Below, in pieces: positions 19,822-29,330 of a stretch of DNA of 64,000 nucleotides. How positions within the stretch are numbered: the stretch's first letter is position 1; the number at the start of each line of letters is the position of its first letter. Both the position numbers and the translations under genes were made by a program. This stretch comes from Selenomonadaceae bacterium (lineage in GTDB: Bacteria; Bacillota; Negativicutes; Selenomonadales; Selenomonadaceae), in the NCBI GenBank assembly GCA_030523645.1, contig JAUNIB010000001.1, forward strand, positions 62,001 to 126,000, written 5' to 3'. The notes beneath the pieces are model-generated. The model was not told the origin of the DNA and did not search any database. It was given only the letters and a program-made list of their open reading frames with translations.

Positions 19822-20481
19822 TTGCGTCTGAGAAACAAGCCATGGGTCAGTGAGGCCATTGCCGAGTATGATTTCGTTTATCCCAAGGAGAAGCCGGCGG
19901 ATGAAACCCAGCGTGGTCGCTGGCGTGAGGTGATGGGGGTGTCCCCGGATACCCGGCTCTATGTGGAGCTTGGCACCGGCAAGGGTGATTTCATCACCCA
20001 GCTGGCAGCAAGAGATCCGGAGGCTGTATTCATCGGTATCGAGGCTCAGCAGGTAGTCCTTTATTCGGCGGCCAAGAAGCTGAAGGCAATGGAGCCGCCG
20101 CTGACGAATGTACGGCTTCTTGTTTTTGACATCAATAATCTTGAAAAGATATTCGCTCCGGGAGAGGTAAGCGGATTTTACATCAATTTCTGCGACCCCT
20201 GGCCGAAGGCCCGCCATGCGAAGCACCGTCTGACTCATCGCAGCTTCCTGGCCCGCTACGGTGAAATTCTGGCTCCGGGAGGAAAAATCTGCTTCAAGAC
20301 GGACAATCGGCCCCTGTTTGATTTCTCTTTGGAGGAGTTCAGAGAGACAGGTCTTCGGGTGGAGGATGTCTCCTACGACCTTCATGCGGAGAACCGGCCG
20401 GATAATATTGAGACGGAGTATGAGCGAAAGTTCTCCCGCTTCGGTGAGAAGATAAATCGCTGTGAGGTGTATTTCCCATGA
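19822..20481 (+). CDS. trmB: tRNA (guanine-N7-)-methyltransferase
   Basis: A 219-aa SAM-dependent enzyme that makes m7G46 in tRNA. TTG start with GAAAGGAAG upstream. Motifs: VELGTGKGDFITQLA (SAM site), INFCDPWPKARHAKHRLTH (family signature) and GGKICFKTDNRPLFDFSLEE. The stop overlaps the start of the RodA gene (ATGA), the first of several tight joins in the 19.8-26.9 kb run. Confidence 0.95.
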   Translation: MRLRNKPWVSEAIAEYDFVYPKEKPADETQRGRWREVMGVSPDTRLYVELGTGKGDFITQLAARDPEAVFIGIEAQQVVLYSAAKKLKAMEPPLTNVRLLVFDINNLEKIFAPGEVSGFYINFCDPWPKARHAKHRLTHRSFLARYGEILAPGGKICFKTDNRPLFDFSLEEFRETGLRVEDVSYDLHAENRPDNIETEYERKFSRFGEKINRCEVYFP

Positions 20482-21707
20482 GAGAAAGCTCCAGGGGAGC
20501 AAGTGAAATACTTGCTGAGAGGAAGGCGCGGGGGGAGAGTCCCCGCAGCTTCTGGCTTAGTGACCGGGAAGCAATGCTCGGAGTCGTATTTTGCCTGCTT
20601 GTCTTTGGGACTATCAATATTTTCAGTTCCAGCTTCTTTCTCGGTATAACGGATTTCGACTCGCCTTATTTCTTCCTGAAGAAGCACCTTATCAATGTGG
20701 CTGTGGGTATGGTTGCCTTCGGGATATTCCAGCATCTTGATTATCACAAGCTGCGAAATCTCGTTACGCCGGGAGCCGTGGCGGTCATCGCCATGCTGGT
20801 GCTGGTCTTCATTCTCGGCGAGGAGATAAACGGTGCAAAGCGCTGGCTGAAGCTGGGGCCTGTCACCCTGCAGCCCTCGGAGTTTGCCAAGCTCCTTACG
20901 ATACTGATTGCTGCTGCGGTAGCGGCTCAGGGCGAGCGGCTGGCTGAGTGGAAGAAATATTGGGGACAGGGCGGACTGGTGCTGGCCATGGCGGCGCTGG
21001 TAGAGTTTGAGCCGGACGGTGCGACGGCAGCCATTGTGGCCGGTATACCGGCGGTGATGCTTCTCTGCTCGGCCCTGCCTTCCCCGGTGAAGAAAAATCT
21101 CATGCTGATGGGTGTGGGAATGGCCGGTATCATTCTCATTATGCAGCCCTACAGAATAAAGAGGTTTATCTCGTTCCTTGACCCCTGGTCAGACCCGGAT
21201 GATGCCGGCTATCAGATAATCCAGTCCATGTCGGCTATCGGCTCCGGCGGCTGGATGGGTATGGGTGTCGGTCAGGGCATAAGCAAGTACAAGTATCTGC
21301 CGGAGGCCCATACGGACTTTGCCTTCTCCATCTGGTGTCAGGAGCAGGGCTTCCTGGGAGCTGTTCTGGTATTTATCTGCTTCCTGGCGTTGGCCTACTA
21401 CGGGCAGCGCATATCCTACAAGGCGAAGGATTTGTTCGGACAATTCCTGGCTGCGGGGATAACCTTCCTGTTGGTAGGTCAGGGCGTAGTAAATATGCTG
21501 ATGATTGCCGGTTTTTTCCCGGTAGTAGGCGTGCCGCTTCCTTTCATCAGCTACGGCGGCACATCGCTGATGGTGACAATGACGGCAGTAGGAATGCTGT
21601 CGAACATCAGCGTATACAGTGAGAAAAAAGAGAAAGAAAATCGCCAACCGGCGGGGCGTCCCTCGCTGAAGCTGGTGTACAGCAGGAATACCCGACGGGA
21701 GGTATAA
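20478..21707 (+). CDS. rodA: FtsW/RodA/SpoVE-family protein, probably RodA
   Basis: A 409-aa SEDS glycosyltransferase that polymerises lipid II in the inner membrane together with a class B PBP. About ten transmembrane segments are visible after a 30-residue polar N-terminus. Family marks: INGAKRWLKLGPVTLQPSEF, KYLPEAHTDFAFSIWCQEQG and VPLPFISYGGTSLM. RodA fits better than FtsW because no division genes are near, but this is not decisive. The gene lies between trmB and a two-component system. Confidence 0.88.
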   Translation: MRESSRGASEILAERKARGESPRSFWLSDREAMLGVVFCLLVFGTINIFSSSFFLGITDFDSPYFFLKKHLINVAVGMVAFGIFQHLDYHKLRNLVTPGAVAVIAMLVLVFILGEEINGAKRWLKLGPVTLQPSEFAKLLTILIAAAVAAQGERLAEWKKYWGQGGLVLAMAALVEFEPDGATAAIVAGIPAVMLLCSALPSPVKKNLMLMGVGMAGIILIMQPYRIKRFISFLDPWSDPDDAGYQIIQSMSAIGSGGWMGMGVGQGISKYKYLPEAHTDFAFSIWCQEQGFLGAVLVFICFLALAYYGQRISYKAKDLFGQFLAAGITFLLVGQGVVNMLMIAGFFPVVGVPLPFISYGGTSLMVTMTAVGMLSNISVYSEKKEKENRQPAGRPSLKLVYSRNTRREV

Positions 21708-22414
21708 TGATGTCGGAGACCGCTAAGAAAGTAAAAATCATGATTGTCGAGGATGAGCAGCGAATTGCCCGCTTCATCCAGATGCAGCTTGAGCATGAGG
21801 GCTTCCTGACGGAGATGGAGCCAAACGGCCGCCGGGCCTATGAGCGGATTGCTCAGGGGCACTATGACCTTGTGCTGCTGGATGTCATGCTGCCGGAGAT
21901 GAACGGCTTTGAAATCTGCACCGCTGTGCGGAAGCTGTCGGATATACCCATCATCATGCTGACAGCCCGGGATGACCTTGACGATAAGGTAAACGGTCTT
22001 GACTGCGGGGCGAACGACTATCTGACGAAGCCTTTCGAGCCGAAGGAGCTGCTGGCCCGCATCAGAGCCACTCTACGCAATTACCATCCGGCAAATGACG
22101 GAGACGGCCACGGCGGTCCCCGGCTCGTCTGCCGTGAACTGGTGATGTACACGGACAGCTACGAGGTCACGCTGAAGGGTGAGAAGATAGAGCTGACCAA
22201 GAAGGAGTATCTCCTGCTGGAGTATCTGCTCCGCAATAAGCGTACAGTCCTGAGCCGCAATCAGATACTTCAGGAGGTCTGGGGCTACGACTACATCGGC
22301 GATACAAATGTGGTAGATGTCTACATCCGCTATCTGCGGTCAAAGATTGATGATGTGGCAGAGGATAAGTACATTCATACCATGAGAGGAATCGGCTATG
22401 TTATCAGGGATTAA
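21707..22414 (+). CDS. OmpR/PhoB-family response regulator
   Basis: A 235-aa regulator. The receiver domain (about 10-125) has the acidic pair DE in IVEDEQR, the phospho-acceptor Asp in LVLLDVMLPEMNG, and the Lys in LTKPFEPKE. The C-terminal winged helix (about 140-232) has ELTKKEYLLLEYLL and GYDYIGDTNVVDVYIRYLRSK. The start codon overlaps the rodA stop (TAATG) and the kinase gene overlaps its end, so it pairs with that kinase. Targets are unknown; the co-transcribed symporter and condensation protein are possible ones. Confidence 0.93.
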   Translation: MMSETAKKVKIMIVEDEQRIARFIQMQLEHEGFLTEMEPNGRRAYERIAQGHYDLVLLDVMLPEMNGFEICTAVRKLSDIPIIMLTARDDLDDKVNGLDCGANDYLTKPFEPKELLARIRATLRNYHPANDGDGHGGPRLVCRELVMYTDSYEVTLKGEKIELTKKEYLLLEYLLRNKRTVLSRNQILQEVWGYDYIGDTNVVDVYIRYLRSKIDDVAEDKYIHTMRGIGYVIRD

Positions 22415-24011
22415 ATCCCGACTGCAGCATTTGCGGATTTCTACCAAGCTGACGCTGGTACATGTTGCAATACTGGCTGTCATCCTGTTCATAACCCAGA
22501 TGATAACTACGGCGGGAATATATTTCACCGTGTATCATCAGGCCTGGTCAGAGCTGGAGCAGACAATAGAGAATACCCTGCTGGCCATAGAGCTGGCCGA
22601 CCCGGAGAAAATGCCGAAGTCCGGGCCGCCGCTGCCGGAAATGCGGCGGGGCAGACACCGGGGGCAGAGCATGAGCCATCATGCCTCGGTAATCGACAGC
22701 TATAAGGCGCAGGGCAATCAGCAGAATGCGAATATACCCGAAAACAAGCGGGCAAGATTCCTCCGCAACCTGAGAGACGAGGGTGCCATCATTCCCGGCG
22801 TAGTTCTCCGTGTCGTCAATGAGGACGGTATGCTGGTCTATGATGGAGCGCAGAACTTTCCTACGCTGGAGGAAGTCCGCACAAATATCGTGAAGCAGAG
22901 GCCGATGTGGGTGAGCAGTGATACTACCCGGGAAGTGTCGGCCTTTGAAAATTATTACCTTTATTACGATGTCCGAAAAGTAGTCTGGGACGGTGTCGGC
23001 TATGAGCTGCACTTCCTGCGGACGATTACGGCGGAGCGGCAGTTCCTCCTGAGACTGCAGCACATCGTTTTCATTGCCTGCCTTATCGGACTGGGCATTG
23101 CCGTCATTGCGGGAATCATCGTCAGCAAGCGGACGCTGAAGCCCATTGCCACCATTACCCGTACCGCCCGGGAGATGGAGATAGGGGATCTGTCAAAGAG
23201 AATCCCTGCATCAGAGGTACATGACGAGCTGTCGGAGCTTATCGACACCTTTAATCACATGCTGGAAAGGCTGGAGCATGGCTTCGAGCATGAGCGGGCC
23301 TTTGTCTCCGATGCCTCCCATGAGCTGAGGACGCCGGTGACGGTCATCCGGGGCTATGTGGATATGCTGAAGAGCTGGGGCGCCTCCGACCCCGATACTA
23401 TGAAGGAGTGCGTGGAGGCCATAAGCTCCGAGGCAGAGAATATGCAGCACCTGCTGGAAAATCTGCTGTTCCTGGCCAGAGCCGACCTGAAGCGTCAGGT
23501 AGTGAAGCTGGTACCGGTGGATATGGAGGAGCTGTTGACGGAAATCGGCAAGAAGGCACAGCTGGTAACGGAATCACATACGGTTGTGCTGAAGCAGAAC
23601 GCCCCGGCTATCGTGGAGGCCGATGAGTTCATGCTGAAGGAGCTGCTCCGGGTCTTCTTGGAGAATGCTATCAAGTATACTCCCGAGGGCGGGTGCATAG
23701 AGCTTGGCTCGGTACGGACAGGCGACTGGGTTACCGTCTTTGTTTCCGATAACGGAATAGGCATTGACAAGGCTGACCAGCCGAAGGTCTTTGACCGGTT
23801 CTTCCGGGTGGACAAAGCAAGAAGCCACAGCAGCGGCGAAGGATCCGGCAAGCCGGGTACGGGGCTTGGTCTGTCCATTGCTCGGGAGATTGCCCGCATT
23901 CACGGCTTCGAGCTGATGCTGGAGAGCAGCCTCGGCAAGGGGACGAAAATCAGCTTCACCATGCCCTGCCTTGATACGGAAGAGGCAGTCAGAGCTATGG
24001 AGGAAGGCTAA
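22398..24011 (+). CDS. Sensor histidine kinase with HAMP domain
   Basis: A 537-aa membrane kinase: transmembrane segment near 15-42, an extracytoplasmic region of about 170 residues with a basic Gly/His-rich patch (PEMRRGRHRGQSMSHHA), a second membrane segment near 220-240, HAMP, HisKA with phospho-His in FVSDASHELRTPVTVI, and HATPase with NAIKYTP, DNGIGI and GTGLGLSIARE. It overlaps the response regulator by 17 bases. The symporter gene follows after 11 bases, consistent with one operon. Confidence 0.93.
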   Translation: MLSGIKSRLQHLRISTKLTLVHVAILAVILFITQMITTAGIYFTVYHQAWSELEQTIENTLLAIELADPEKMPKSGPPLPEMRRGRHRGQSMSHHASVIDSYKAQGNQQNANIPENKRARFLRNLRDEGAIIPGVVLRVVNEDGMLVYDGAQNFPTLEEVRTNIVKQRPMWVSSDTTREVSAFENYYLYYDVRKVVWDGVGYELHFLRTITAERQFLLRLQHIVFIACLIGLGIAVIAGIIVSKRTLKPIATITRTAREMEIGDLSKRIPASEVHDELSELIDTFNHMLERLEHGFEHERAFVSDASHELRTPVTVIRGYVDMLKSWGASDPDTMKECVEAISSEAENMQHLLENLLFLARADLKRQVVKLVPVDMEELLTEIGKKAQLVTESHTVVLKQNAPAIVEADEFMLKELLRVFLENAIKYTPEGGCIELGSVRTGDWVTVFVSDNGIGIDKADQPKVFDRFFRVDKARSHSSGEGSGKPGTGLGLSIAREIARIHGFELMLESSLGKGTKISFTMPCLDTEEAVRAMEEG

Positions 24012-24022
24012 GGTAAACGCTC

Positions 24023-25594
24023 TTGAAGAATCATATTTCTGAGTATGTCCTTAATGCGGAAAATATCGATGCGATATCTGAAAGTATCAGCAGCTTTATC
24101 CTCGGCGGGAAATACTATGAAGGTATCGCGCTGAAGACAAGGCTGTCGGCGGAGACAATTCTCCTTCATTGGCTGGATAATGCCCCTGAGGGAGCAACCG
24201 TCTCTTTGGAGTATATAAAGCGCTTTGGACGACTGCATGTGCGGCTCAGACTTAAGGGAGAGGCTATCGGCAACCCGCTGGAAAGCAGCGAGGACGATTT
24301 CCAAAGCACCCTGCTGACCAATATGGAGACGACATACAGCTACACCTTCACCAAGGGAGAAAATGTCGTCGACTTTAAGCTGCCGATGCTTCCTGTAAGC
24401 AATATGGCGCAGGTTTTCATCGCTGCCGCGCTGGCTCTGGTGCTGGGCTATGCCATGGGTATCATGCTGCCGGCGGATGTGAACCTTATGGTCAGCACTA
24501 ACTATGTTACGCCGCTGTTTAAGACTATCCTCGGTATTCTCAGTACCTTTGCCTGCTTTATGGTCTTTTTCTCCATCCTTTCCAGCGTAGCCAGTATGGG
24601 AAATGTGGCAACGCTGAAAAGTATGGGTAAGGAATATCTGAAGCAGATTATAAGCAGTACCGCTGTCTGTGGTGTAATCTCTATGGCAATAGGTACGCTG
24701 GTGTTCGATGTTGTCAGCCTTGATAAAGGCTCCGGTGTCAGCGTCTTTGATAAGATTTTCGCGATGCTGGTGGACACTATTCCGGTGAATGTTTTTGGCG
24801 CCTTTTATAAGGGAAATATGCTGCAAATCGCTGTATTATCCTTATTTGTCGGTGTCATTATGCTGATGCTGGGGGATGAGGTGGCTGCCGTCAGGAAGCA
24901 GATTGGCGAGTACAACAAGCTGTTTCAGTACGCCATACGCATTATCTGTAAATGCACGCCGCTGCTTATCTTCCTGAGCCTGCTGAAGCTGATTCTGAGC
25001 AATACTATAAGCGTGGCTCTGGCCAGCTGGAAGATTCTGGCCATGAACAATATCTGCTATATTCTTGTGCTGGTGAGTGTTACGGTGGCTACCTGCATAC
25101 ATTGCAGGATTCCCCTGACGGAGCATATAAAGAAGAGCATTCCACTGTATCTGCTGGGATTCTCTGCCGGCTCCAGCGTTCCCTGTCTGCCGGCTATACG
25201 CAAGCAGCTTGAGTCATACCGTGTAGACCCGGGGATTATAGACTTTGCCCTGCCTATCGGTGTTGTCATCTCGAAGCGGGCAAGGGTGGTTTACTACATA
25301 ATTCTGGTACTGGGTATTTCCTCGGTCTTTGGCAAGACGATTGCTTCAAGCCAGCTGATTGTCCTGCTGTTTTCCAGTCTGCTGCTGGCCAATGCGACAC
25401 CTTCTATTCCAGGCGGCCCGCTGGCGATTGTTTCTCTTCTTTTGGAGCAGTACGGTCTGCCCTTGGAGGCCGTGGGCGTAGCCATTTCCCTGAGTTTGCT
25501 GGATGCTATGCCGGCGGGGGCTGTCAAGGTGGTAACGGTTTTTGATGATGTTCTGTATTTACAGGGTACAGTAGACAGAGAAAAAATAGGGTGA
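24023..25594 (+). CDS. Dicarboxylate/amino acid:cation symporter with N-terminal GHKL-like domain
   Basis: A 523-aa protein, TTG start. Residues 1-125 are soluble and resemble a degenerate GHKL (anti-sigma/histidine-kinase-like) ATPase: a helix RLSAETILLHWLDN, then strands SLEYIKRFGRLHVRLRLKGE and a GNPLE segment, without a clear N-box Asn. Residues about 130-520 are a DAACS (SDF) transporter with about eight hydrophobic segments, AGSSVPCLPAIRKQLE in hairpin 1, and NATPSIPGGPLAI as the family's conserved C-terminal substrate region. It probably imports an acidic or neutral amino acid with Na+ or H+. Located between the kinase and the condensation-domain gene (6 bases apart). Confidence 0.82.
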   Translation: MKNHISEYVLNAENIDAISESISSFILGGKYYEGIALKTRLSAETILLHWLDNAPEGATVSLEYIKRFGRLHVRLRLKGEAIGNPLESSEDDFQSTLLTNMETTYSYTFTKGENVVDFKLPMLPVSNMAQVFIAAALALVLGYAMGIMLPADVNLMVSTNYVTPLFKTILGILSTFACFMVFFSILSSVASMGNVATLKSMGKEYLKQIISSTAVCGVISMAIGTLVFDVVSLDKGSGVSVFDKIFAMLVDTIPVNVFGAFYKGNMLQIAVLSLFVGVIMLMLGDEVAAVRKQIGEYNKLFQYAIRIICKCTPLLIFLSLLKLILSNTISVALASWKILAMNNICYILVLVSVTVATCIHCRIPLTEHIKKSIPLYLLGFSAGSSVPCLPAIRKQLESYRVDPGIIDFALPIGVVISKRARVVYYIILVLGISSVFGKTIASSQLIVLLFSSLLLANATPSIPGGPLAIVSLLLEQYGLPLEAVGVAISLSLLDAMPAGAVKVVTVFDDVLYLQGTVDREKIG

Positions 25595-25600
25595 TATCAA

Positions 25601-26935
25601 ATGGTTTTGAAGGACATAGATGAGCTAAGACGAATAAACGATGAGGAATTGTATCGGCCGCATCCGCTGACTCCCTATCAGATTAAGGTGCTGGATAATC
25701 AGCTGGCATCTGTTCACTCCACCATGTGGAATGTACCGTTGGGCATCAAGCTGAAGGCGGATGTTGTTGACCCTCAGCAGTTTCTTGAGGCGGCAACAAG
25801 AGTGATAGAGGCACATCCTGTGCTGAATACCCGCATTTTTGTTGATGTTGACGGTACTTTCAAGCAGCAGATATGTCCGGGCTTTGCAAAATGTCAGCTG
25901 AAGCATGTCTCCGAGCAGGAGATGAAGGACATAATAGGTCAATATCCTAAGCCTTTTGACCTGATAAATTCACATCTTTCTTTGGTTGATATTTATGCGA
26001 CCGAGGAAAATGTATATGTTTTCATTGATGCCCATCATATTATTTATGACGGAAGTACCGCAAGGGTCGTATTCACTGAGCTGGTCAGCCTGTATGAAGA
26101 CCTTGACTGCAGCATGGAAGATGATTTGTTCCCGGGTTTTAGTGTTCTTGAACAGCGATATCTGGAGACCGAAGAGTGCCAGGCTGATAGGGCGTACTAT
26201 GAGGAAACATACGGCGGCTGCAGCTGGTGCAATATGCCGGAGCCGGATTTCCCATTAGAGGATGTAACTGCCGGGAATTATCGGCTCAGCATGGGAGTAA
26301 GCATTGATGAGATGAAGGAGGCCGAAAGGCGCTGCCATACTACCCGGGCGCGTCTTGCCAATGCTGCCGGCCTTCTGGCACTGGCCAAGCATGCCGGGCA
26401 GAAGGATGTAATGATAACCTGGATTTTCCATAACCGCAGTGAGAAGTGGAAGGCTAACATGGTGGGAATGCTTATCCGGGAGCTGCCGATAGGCATTCAT
26501 ATTTCTGAGCTGGATACGCTGGATGACCTGTACAAATCAATGAACAAGCAGATGAAAGAGAGTACAAAGCGCTGCAGCTATCAGTACATGGTTAATCATG
26601 AGGAGGCTCTCATAAACGACAGCATGGAGGTAAATTATAAGGGGAGCGGTATCAGGTTTGAAAATGCGCTGCCGTGCCTTGGAGATTTGGGGCAGGGAGC
26701 GGAAATGCTTTCGCTGGATGAGCTGATTGACGAGAGTGAAGCTCGGATGGAGATTGATGTATTCGAAGCTCCTGAAGCCGAACCGGATGAGCAGATATAC
26801 ATATCTGCTCTGTATATTGCCTCCTTATACAAGGAAGAGACTATAAAGGGCTTCTTTGAGCTGTACCGTACGATGTTCCAACGACTGGTGAAGGCAGAGA
26901 AGACTATGACTATAGCAGAGCTGATGGCAGATTGA
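25601..26935 (+). CDS. Stand-alone NRPS condensation-domain protein
   Basis: A 444-aa protein consisting only of a condensation/acyltransferase fold. N-terminal YRPHPLTPYQIKVLDNQL resembles C-domain motif C1, and the catalytic motif HHxxxDG is intact as DAHHIIYDGS (about residues 144-153). Adenylation, carrier and thioesterase domains are absent here and nearby. Such lone C domains join two activated acyl/aminoacyl groups, or acylate a carrier-bound substrate, supplied in trans. It sits six bases behind the fused symporter, last gene of a possible six-gene run from trmB; a terminator follows at 26992-27026. Function is not known. Confidence 0.8.
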   Translation: MVLKDIDELRRINDEELYRPHPLTPYQIKVLDNQLASVHSTMWNVPLGIKLKADVVDPQQFLEAATRVIEAHPVLNTRIFVDVDGTFKQQICPGFAKCQLKHVSEQEMKDIIGQYPKPFDLINSHLSLVDIYATEENVYVFIDAHHIIYDGSTARVVFTELVSLYEDLDCSMEDDLFPGFSVLEQRYLETEECQADRAYYEETYGGCSWCNMPEPDFPLEDVTAGNYRLSMGVSIDEMKEAERRCHTTRARLANAAGLLALAKHAGQKDVMITWIFHNRSEKWKANMVGMLIRELPIGIHISELDTLDDLYKSMNKQMKESTKRCSYQYMVNHEEALINDSMEVNYKGSGIRFENALPCLGDLGQGAEMLSLDELIDESEARMEIDVFEAPEAEPDEQIYISALYIASLYKEETIKGFFELYRTMFQRLVKAEKTMTIAELMAD

Positions 26936-26991
26936 CGAGATGTGTTTTGGTCGGTGAAAAGTAACACTATATAGGAATAAATGGGACAACG

Positions 26992-27026
26992 AAAGCCGCT
27001 GTGCAGACGATGCACGGCGGCTTTTT
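26992..27026 (+). terminator. Terminator after the condensation-domain gene
   Basis: AAGCCGCTGTGCA pairs with TGCACGGCGGCTT around GACGA, followed by TTTTT. The core is closely similar to the hairpin at 33681-33714, so both may derive from one mobile hairpin repeat. Confidence 0.85.
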
Positions 27027-27159
27027 GTATGAAGAAAAGTGTGAATGATTTGTGATAATAGCACTGTGTACATAAAAATGAACAATCAATGTGTTATTCT
27101 GAAGGTACAATATGAAGGGACAGGGTAACATGAGTGGCTGTGAGTAAGGGAGGATGATT

Positions 27160-27714
27160 ATGAGTAGCTTCTGCTTTTTTACTGGAGCGAACAAGGGGAC
27201 ACTGGTATTGATTAAGACAGGTGCCAGACTGCCGGGGGATTCTATTTCTGACAAGTACCTAAGGTTGGCAGAATTGGTTAGAAGCAGCACCGACTTTTCA
27301 GTATTGGTGCAGCTTACGATTCAATCAACGCCGGTACATCAGAGCATGGAAGAGCTGATGGAGGCAGCAAGGGAACTGGCACCAGAGGCAGACAGGATAT
27401 ATTACATCGGAATATCAAAAGGAGCCTCAATCGGAGCGATACAGGCATTCAAATATCCCTCCATTGTCGGTATGCTGCTGGTAAATCCAACCCTGATGAT
27501 TAACTGGCTGAAAATAAAACGGGGGCTTGAGCTTTTTTCGTCGGGAAGGATATCTATACTGATTGGAAAGCAAGATCCGAGTATTAATCTTATAGGATTT
27601 TTGGAGGTGGTTGACAATCGCAACCTTGAAGTACTCGTGGAAAAGGGGCAAGGACACAGCCTTGAAGAAGAATGCTTAAAAGATGCGGTGATTCGGTACC
27701 TGAACATAATGTAA
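27160..27714 (+). CDS. Small alpha/beta hydrolase
   Basis: 184 aa; ATG 27160 is preferred over ATG 27154 because AGGGAGG then lies six bases away. The nucleophile elbow is GISKGAS (GxSxG), with Asp in IGKQDPSIN and His in GQGHSLEEE completing a likely triad. The protein is short, so the cap is minimal. It could be an esterase or a peptidase-like hydrolase; the substrate is unknown. It is the first gene of the AT-richer stretch and precedes the HExxH protein by 38 bases in the same direction. Confidence 0.7.
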   Translation: MSSFCFFTGANKGTLVLIKTGARLPGDSISDKYLRLAELVRSSTDFSVLVQLTIQSTPVHQSMEELMEAARELAPEADRIYYIGISKGASIGAIQAFKYPSIVGMLLVNPTLMINWLKIKRGLELFSSGRISILIGKQDPSINLIGFLEVVDNRNLEVLVEKGQGHSLEEECLKDAVIRYLNIM

Positions 27715-27752
27715 TCGAACAATGTAAATAGTTAATGTTTGGAGGTATTATA

Positions 27753-29330
27753 ATGTTAATCAGTAGAGTGTATAGAATGAATTTGAACAGCCATTTGAAA
27801 GTAAGTGATTACGGAAATTGGTTAAAGGTTATAAGCTTCTGCCTGGATAATCCTGCTGACCAAAAGCTGGTGCTGGGTTGGGGCGGAATATATAAGCAAT
27901 ACCAGATAGATGATTACGCTTCGTTTGCTGAAGCAGCAAGGGAGAACGATAGAAAACAAGGAAAAAAGGCGAATCGAGCATTAACATACTTTGGTGAACT
28001 GAAAAAGGATGACTTGGTTTGGACACGAGATGCTGAGGACAACTGGTGGCTGTGCAGAGTCCTGGCTCCGGCTGAGTCATTTTGCAGGCCAGACTTGGAT
28101 ATCGGTGCGGCAGTGGGAGTAGAGGCTTACTGTGCCGGGCATGTTGATATAAGCAAGTTTTGCAAAATGTTTTTTAATGAAACGATGTCAAAGCTTGAGG
28201 AATTGGATTTTGTAGCGTTTTCCCGCTATATGTTCAATCTGCTTGCCCGCCGTAGAGAATATCGAGGTATGCGCGGGACGGGGAATGGAGCTCCAAGTAT
28301 ATTCTCGCCGTATGAGAAAAAAGAGCTGCCAAAACGGAAGGCTGACATGAATGTGAAATTTTACCCCAAAAGTAAGGCTGTCATGCCCGAAGGGGGTGTG
28401 ATGGAAGATTTAAGATTTCATTTTAGTTACAGGGTTGAAGGCGAAAGCAATGATTTGACGGTCGCTGACTGTATGCGGATGAATGAGTATCTCGAGAAAG
28501 CCATGTTTATTGGGTTTGAATCTGATAAGACAGGCATACTTGTAGAAATACCGGTCATCCTGTCGGAAGACAGTGGGACCAATCATATAGACGACCAAAA
28601 TCGAGAGCTTGGAAAGCTCATCGAGAGATTAAGAAACAAGGCAAAGGAGGGAAATCGCTATTCAGACAGATTGAATGACCTCATTGATTGTATAGAACGT
28701 GAACTGTCTACAGCAACGACTGACGGATTGTACGACAGAATTAGACAGAAGACAGATAAATGCTTAGGCAATATTTTACGAGGGATTGGCGCTGAATGGT
28801 TTGAAAGAGAATACAGAGAAAATGCAGCATGGATTTATCAGGTGAATAATATCTTGATTGAATTGCTGAACATCACGAGAGCGATGACAGGCGTTCTGGG
28901 TTTATTCCGGCATTCGGGTAATTCGCCGGAGGGGATAGTACTCTATATCAATGAGATAAAGAAAGCGGCGACGAAAGAGGGAATAGACTATAGAGAGTAT
29001 TTGATGACGGTTCTCTGCCATGAAATGTACCACTTCAGGCACTTCATGGCTGTGCTTGCCAAGCATGGACATTGGGAACCTGATGAGAATATCATTTACG
29101 GGGGATATGTGTCCGAAGCACTGGCTAAGTATGGCGAGCTCTATTATACAGATGACAATAATTATGTGGATATTTTTGAAAGTGAATATAATGCGCAGAA
29201 AACCGCAGGTAATAATGGCGGCTATAGTGCTGGCGTAAAAATATACGATAACGGAGAGCACCATAAATTCCTGGCCATGTCCATGGACAATATGGATAGA
29301 GCGAATGAAGAAATCTATAATATGTGCTAA
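27753..29330 (+). CDS. Uncharacterised protein with a HExxH metallopeptidase-like motif
   Basis: 525 aa from ATG 27753, which has TTTGGAGG at the right distance; an earlier ATG at 27735 has none. I do not recognise the family. Near residues 85-105 a segment LKKDDLVWTRDAEDNWWLCRV looks like a small SH3/Tudor-type barrel strand pattern. The C-terminal part has VLCHEMYHFRHF: His423, Glu424 and His427 fit a zinc HExxH site, and Glu455 in YVSEALAKY is placed like the third ligand of gluzincins. No signal peptide or membrane segment is seen, so it is probably cytoplasmic. Neighbours are the small hydrolase and, beyond a shared terminator, a convergent unknown gene. Confidence 0.65.
   Translation: MLISRVYRMNLNSHLKVSDYGNWLKVISFCLDNPADQKLVLGWGGIYKQYQIDDYASFAEAARENDRKQGKKANRALTYFGELKKDDLVWTRDAEDNWWLCRVLAPAESFCRPDLDIGAAVGVEAYCAGHVDISKFCKMFFNETMSKLEELDFVAFSRYMFNLLARRREYRGMRGTGNGAPSIFSPYEKKELPKRKADMNVKFYPKSKAVMPEGGVMEDLRFHFSYRVEGESNDLTVADCMRMNEYLEKAMFIGFESDKTGILVEIPVILSEDSGTNHIDDQNRELGKLIERLRNKAKEGNRYSDRLNDLIDCIERELSTATTDGLYDRIRQKTDKCLGNILRGIGAEWFEREYRENAAWIYQVNNILIELLNITRAMTGVLGLFRHSGNSPEGIVLYINEIKKAATKEGIDYREYLMTVLCHEMYHFRHFMAVLAKHGHWEPDENIIYGGYVSEALAKYGELYYTDDNNYVDIFESEYNAQKTAGNNGGYSAGVKIYDNGEHHKFLAMSMDNMDRANEEIYNMC

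Follow-up and report, generated by a model that had tools for sequence, protein, structure and literature searches.

A Transporter-Fold Protein with a Pseudo-RsbW Domain beside an Orphan Condensation Domain in a Selenomonadaceae Bacterium

What could link a transporter-like membrane protein that carries an extra soluble domain to a lone condensation (C) domain of the nonribosomal peptide synthetase (NRPS) type? The question is posed by two adjacent genes in the window, a 64,000-nucleotide stretch of a Selenomonadaceae genome. An initial annotation described a DAACS transporter with a degenerate GHKL-like N terminus followed by a gene encoding only a C domain, and proposed that uptake or sensing of an amino acid is coupled to a trans-acting condensation step. 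An open reading frame check found the pair, its coordinates, and its spacing exactly as described. The SDF gene (24023-25594, 523 aa, TTG start) is separated from the C-domain gene (444 aa, ATG start) by 6 bases from stop to start on the same strand. The two genes close a tightly spaced run in the order trmB-rodA-RR-HK-SDF-C, where the SDF gene begins 11 bases after the end of the histidine kinase (HK) gene (Table 1). The two-component system and RodA that had been placed upstream of the pair are confirmed by their Pfam domains. The strong hairpin just 3′ of the C gene is probably the end of transcription of the run.

Table 1. Features of the gene run and of its two terminal proteins (window coordinates)
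Feature	Coordinates	Strand	Evidence
trmB, tRNA (guanosine46-N7)-methyltransferase, first in run	19822..20481	+	NCBIfam PRK00121/TIGR00091 above cut-off
rodA/ftsW-type gene	20478..21707	+	PF01098 E 7e-95
OmpR-type response regulator (RR)	21707..22414	+	PF00072 + PF00486
Membrane histidine kinase, HAMP-HisKA-HATPase_c	22398..24011	+	Pfam
RsbW/SpoIIAB-type HATPase_c_2 domain (predicted), SDF-protein residues 1-125, ATP-site residues lost	24023..24397	+	
N-box equivalent E44-T-I-L-L-H49	24152..24169	+	combined alignment
SDF (SLC1/DAACS-fold) domain, residues 130-496	24410..25510	+	PF00375 E 9e-44
SKRAR at Na+-binding NMDGT position	25271..25285	+	alignment
Stand-alone condensation (C) protein	25601..26935	+	PF00668 E 1e-39
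HHIIYDG catalytic motif	26033..26053	+	sequence; alignment of relatives
Intrinsic terminator, ~15-bp stem, U tail	about 26991..27029	+	-27.6 kcal/mol, z -7.0

The two domains of the SDF protein

A Pfam search with the N terminus of the window protein alone gave no matches, and profile-profile and fold comparisons were therefore used. The AlphaFold2 model of this domain (pLDDT 88.2, pTM 0.82, from a 35-row alignment) was compared with the PDB using Foldseek, and the top 13 matches were all anti-sigma factors (SpoIIAB, RsbW, and UsfX). Upon realignment with VIA-align, the top ten were likewise anti-sigma factors (SpoIIAB, RsbW, UsfX, and Rv1364c; Z 11.4-12.8), the best with an rmsd of 2.7 over 119 residues at Z 12.8, and histidine kinases fell far below at a Z of about 7. 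With hhalign, the N termini of 51 fusion proteins matched a set of 8 stand-alone HATPase_c_2 proteins at 98% (E 1.5e-13), and the subgroup containing the window protein matched HATPase_c_2 at 87% (E 4e-6); column-shuffled control profiles scored under 1%. One member of the fusion family matches PF13581 directly along its whole length, below the cut-off. As judged from the model and the profiles, the N terminus is an RsbW/SpoIIAB-type (HATPase_c_2) fold without ATP-site residues. The earlier guess of a degenerate GHKL domain for residues 1-125 was thus right, and the predicted structure narrows it to the anti-sigma kinase type.

The losses at the ATP site are extensive. In the combined alignment, the window protein has T and H where an N-box usually has E and N, L in place of the G1 Asp, and D/D/Q in place of the G2 glycines. 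Across the family, the N-box Asn (His in the window protein) is Arg in 39 of 51 fusions, the G1 Asp is missing in 50 of 51, and the lid glycines are missing too. Because these residues are gone, the domain is a pseudo-RsbW domain and not an RsbW Ser kinase. Provided that the SLC1 topology holds, it presumably lies on the cytosolic side.

The designation as a DAACS transporter stands as far as the fold and the Pfam profile are concerned, and Foldseek matches the model of the full-length protein to GltPh/GltTk and EAAT. The residues of a Na+-coupled symporter are a different matter. Alignment to solved aspartate transporters places SKRAR at the NMDGT site of TM7 and shows the loss of the TM8 motif (Arg/Asn/Asp), whose Arg and Asn are gone, the substrate Arg among them; where the window protein reads DAMPAGAVKVVTVFDD, the canonical SDF protein of the same genome, which retains NMDGT, reads DMMRTCVNVTGD. 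Since both NMDGT and the substrate Arg are lost, the window protein is unlikely to be an ordinary amino-acid symporter, and the uptake of an amino acid proposed earlier is not borne out by the alignments. Exact NMDGT occurs in only 1 of 51 aligned SDF-family proteins, and NMDGG with RT..N is found in some. By these motifs, the fusion family spans near-canonical to strongly altered proteins, with the window protein at the altered end.

The C domain and the inventory of the genome

The lone C domain with an intact HHIIYDG motif was confirmed. The Pfam Condensation profile (PF00668) spans the entire protein, and STAS, A, and PCP domains are absent from it. Its nearest relatives, at 35% identity, are the C domains of A-PCP-C proteins encoded next to tail-less MATE exporters. 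A tree groups the window C domain with this type at 98/99 support, although the branches joined are long, and the motif WIF(N/H)NR...VGML is common to both. Both the tree and the motifs assign it to a different subgroup from the C domains of the STAS-C fusions described below.

The initial annotation had suggested looking for adenylation and carrier proteins elsewhere in the genome. A profile search gave no match to the AMP-binding (adenylation) domain PF00501 in the genome, and the sole PF00550 carrier is an ACP-like protein encoded by an 88-codon frame. A cognate A-PCP acting in trans was therefore dropped, none being present in the genome. Without an adenylation domain in the genome, the window C protein would draw an acyl donor from the sole ACP, and with this single ACP-like carrier an acyl transfer is its likeliest chemistry.

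Two further C-like domains are encoded in the genome. The gene for one of them (L034:5094-11330, C5) has a radical SAM gene on one side and a MATE exporter gene on the other, the order being LytR_CpsA_Psr, MATE with a degenerate tail, C domain, radical SAM/SPASM cluster; the tail, strongly degenerate, occupies the same position as the RsbW-like tail of relatives. The other (L035:8619-10553, C11:58921) lacks HHxxxDG, is fused to a cyclic-nucleotide-binding domain, and lies directly behind a hybrid histidine kinase. The sole STAS found in the genome is at C3:39959-44587, together with an intact RsbW-like kinase (HATPase_c_2) and two SpoIIE phosphatases. No partner-switching genes were found in the 19.8-27 kb run or among the neighbors of the genome's two other fusion paralogues. 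Any switching would thus act in trans from the C3 set.

Fusions, STAS-C proteins, and their neighbors in relatives

SDF matches to the window protein occur in most of the sampled family genomes, and many are full-length fusions. Named records put the fusion family in Selenomonadaceae, and a database scan with tight alignment added cases in Synergistaceae, Peptococcaceae, Oscillospiraceae, and Butyrivibrio MAGs. A genome often carries several RsbW-like-SDF fusions, and as many as five can stand in tandem. Five such genes follow one another at L040:6959-14943, with a tRNA methyltransferase/thiolase-type gene (PF03054) on one side and a pyridine-nucleotide oxidoreductase on the other; L039 has three in tandem.

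In neighborhood tables built from simple ORF calls and purpose-built HMMs, STAS, SpoIIE, or HATPase_c_2 domains are encoded by 22 of 254 genes within three genes of a fusion, compared with 4 of 401 genes at greater distance (Fisher p 1e-6); a partner-switching gene lies within three genes at only 12 of 43 fusion loci. Fusions beside partner-switching genes were also seen in Selenomonas, Peptococcaceae, and Oscillospiraceae records. In Selenomonas ruminis (L150/L212) the order is STAS, RsbW-like, fusion, SpoIIE.

The C proteins of relatives have neighbors of a related kind. A MATE exporter is encoded within two genes of 25 of 33 stand-alone C proteins, and many C proteins are STAS-C fusions whose neighboring MATE bears an RsbW-like tail at its C terminus; for STAS-C proteins as a class, a MATE is within two genes in 19 of 20. 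The tail in L178 scores above the Pfam cut-off, and the tails as a set match the RsbW-like profile at 96%. SpoIIE and A-PCP-C proteins neighbor these pairs. The (S/A)SAG motif keeps its serine in every STAS part of the fusions, and we take this residue to be the phosphoacceptor. The catalytic motif of these fusions is FYHAxMDG, with Tyr for the first His of HHxxxDG; since the second His survives and so does DG, the notion that they are dead enzymes was dropped. A wide distribution of STAS-C proteins in the phylum was also dropped, since full-length matches among 299 sampled genomes fall within Selenomonadaceae only.

Some of these loci merit mention for their own sake. At L178:7443-14455, L179, L170, L176, and L119, all from Selenomonadaceae, the order is SpoIIE, (STAS), STAS-C, A-PCP-C, MATE with RsbW-like tail. 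Such loci, with switch domains fused to NRPS and exporter parts, may be of greater interest than the SDF/C pair. At seven others (L116, L120, L166, L167, L173, L174, and L177), the STAS-C/MATE pairs adjoin two DUF6056-like membrane proteins and a protein of ~1030-1075 aa, an RND pump according to Pfam in L116 and L120.

The SDF/C pair itself did not recur. Among the matches listed, up to about 150 per list, it was found at 0 of 35 C-centered and 0 of 42 other SDF-centered loci, and no C domain was found in the one other genome of the genus; rare further cases may exist. The conserved co-occurrence expected of the two genes is hence not seen, and a conserved SDF/C pair was dropped, a second case being absent among the matches listed; the wider pattern of a transporter with an RsbW-like domain beside a C domain does recur, with MATE as the transporter. 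GC3 drops from 0.70 in the kinase gene to 0.59 in the SDF gene and 0.54 in the C gene and continues into a low-G+C stretch. Given this fall in G+C across the pair, the juxtaposition may be recent. The stretch opens with two proteins encoded within 27154-29330 (GC3 0.46-0.49, lower further on): one of 186 aa with a possible alpha/beta-hydrolase GxSxG motif and one of 531 aa that matches nothing in Pfam or NCBIfam and has a zinc-protease-like motif (CHEMYHF).

Readings of the pair and their meaning

Of the explanations considered, we tentatively prefer a membrane node governed by partner switching, with the orphan C enzyme docked to it, although we hold this with less than even confidence. The SLC1-fold protein would be the membrane node of a partner-switching pathway and most likely no Na+-coupled symporter. 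Its pseudo-RsbW domain would bind a STAS protein and phosphorylate nothing, the partner probably being the single STAS of the genome at the C3 locus. The two proteins would be expressed together, with the C protein probably kept at the membrane next to the transporter-like one, by analogy to relatives, which seem to hold STAS-C enzymes at RsbW-tailed MATE exporters. The C protein would then join the acyl group carried by the ACP, the only carrier, to an amine or hydroxyl acceptor. Domain identities, lost sites, neighborhoods in relatives, and the gene inventory are observations; STAS binding, docking, catalysis, and the product are inferred. As the pair was seen nowhere else, a joint function leans on the analogy. 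Also speaking against this reading are the missing STAS domain of the window C protein, the lack of partner-switching genes in the run, at most fusion loci, and beside the two paralogues, the fall in G+C, and the long branches in the C-domain tree.

A serious rival, though a less probable one, is that the two genes are chance neighbors with separate jobs that became adjacent at the border of a low-G+C region gained by acquisition. Their pairing at this locus only among the matches listed (0 of 35 and 0 of 42), the congener genome without a C domain, and the G+C gradient are all as this would predict. The 6-base gap, single strand, and common terminator are less easily accommodated, as is the fact that modules of these two kinds are also paired around MATE, in many relatives and at a second locus of this genome. 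The closeness of the SDF gene to the kinase gene, 11 bases upstream, suggests another arrangement, in which the SDF protein works as a co-sensor for the neighboring histidine kinase, contacting it through the RsbW-like domain, and the C gene belongs to the output. DctA acts in this manner with DcuS, and the lost transport residues are compatible with a sensor. In relatives, however, the fusion adjoins SpoIIE, STAS, and RsbW-like genes, and no histidine kinase is present among the labeled neighbors of the two paralogues (some neighbors being unlabeled), so that we regard a co-sensor as unlikely. The proposal that a working amino-acid symporter feeds a trans-acting C domain, yielding a dipeptide, an acylated amino acid, or a change in the envelope, draws on the SDF fold, the intact HHIIYDG, and rodA within the run. 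It is the least probable of the four: SKRAR has replaced NMDGT, the TM8 Arg and Asn are gone, the genome encodes no adenylation domain, and the pair is unconserved among the matches listed.

The preferred reading, a partner-switched node with a docked C enzyme, combines features of known proteins. The N-terminal domain resembles RsbW/SpoIIAB/UsfX (HATPase_c_2, PF13581) in fold and profile and in the STAS and SpoIIE partners found in relatives but is fused to an SDF membrane domain and lacks the N-box Asn and the G1 Asp; no target sigma factor was identified for it. The membrane domain has the entire fold of the DAACS/SLC1 symporters (GltPh, GltP, and DctA; PF00375) and a profile score above the cut-off but is without NMDGT and the TM8 Arg/Asn, and the protein has the extra cytosolic RsbW-like domain. 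Like stand-alone NRPS C domains and CAT-like acyltransferases (PF00668, PapA5-like), the window C protein is a full C domain with HHxxxDG; it differs in adjoining a transporter-like gene in a genome without an A or PCP partner.

A grouping of NRPS, MATE, and partner-switching genes has a precedent in Methanobrevibacter ruminantium M1, whose NRPS loci are accompanied by serine phosphatases, an anti-sigma-factor antagonist, and MatE and were interpreted in 2010 in terms of sensing and of control over NRPS expression (PMC2812497). In contrast, Selenomonadaceae fuse STAS to the C enzyme and an RsbW-like tail or head to transporters; the window pair has an SDF protein as the transporter and a C domain without STAS. 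SLC26/SulP transporters are similarly fused to one half of a STAS/RsbW pair (PMC8256260), in their case the STAS domain, whereas the window SDF protein carries the RsbW half. A search of the openly accessible literature for the fusions returned the M. ruminantium neighborhood as the only precedent and no paper on a fusion.

The fusions themselves hint that the partner switch could control enzymes and exporters directly and not via transcription. More speculatively, and with appreciable doubt, STAS, RsbW-like, and SpoIIE proteins in Selenomonadaceae may provide post-translational control of C domains and transporters, with pseudo-RsbW domains for docking; the window would then be a reduced form, with an SLC1 fold for MATE and a C domain lacking STAS. 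Partner switching is best known for sigma-factor control. If this view is true, its fusion to transporters (SDF and MATE) and C domains would turn it into a general switch, acting at the protein level, for the synthesis and transport of small molecules. It would also offer a way into the numerous orphan NRPS loci with phosphatase, STAS, and MATE genes in rumen bacteria and methanogens.
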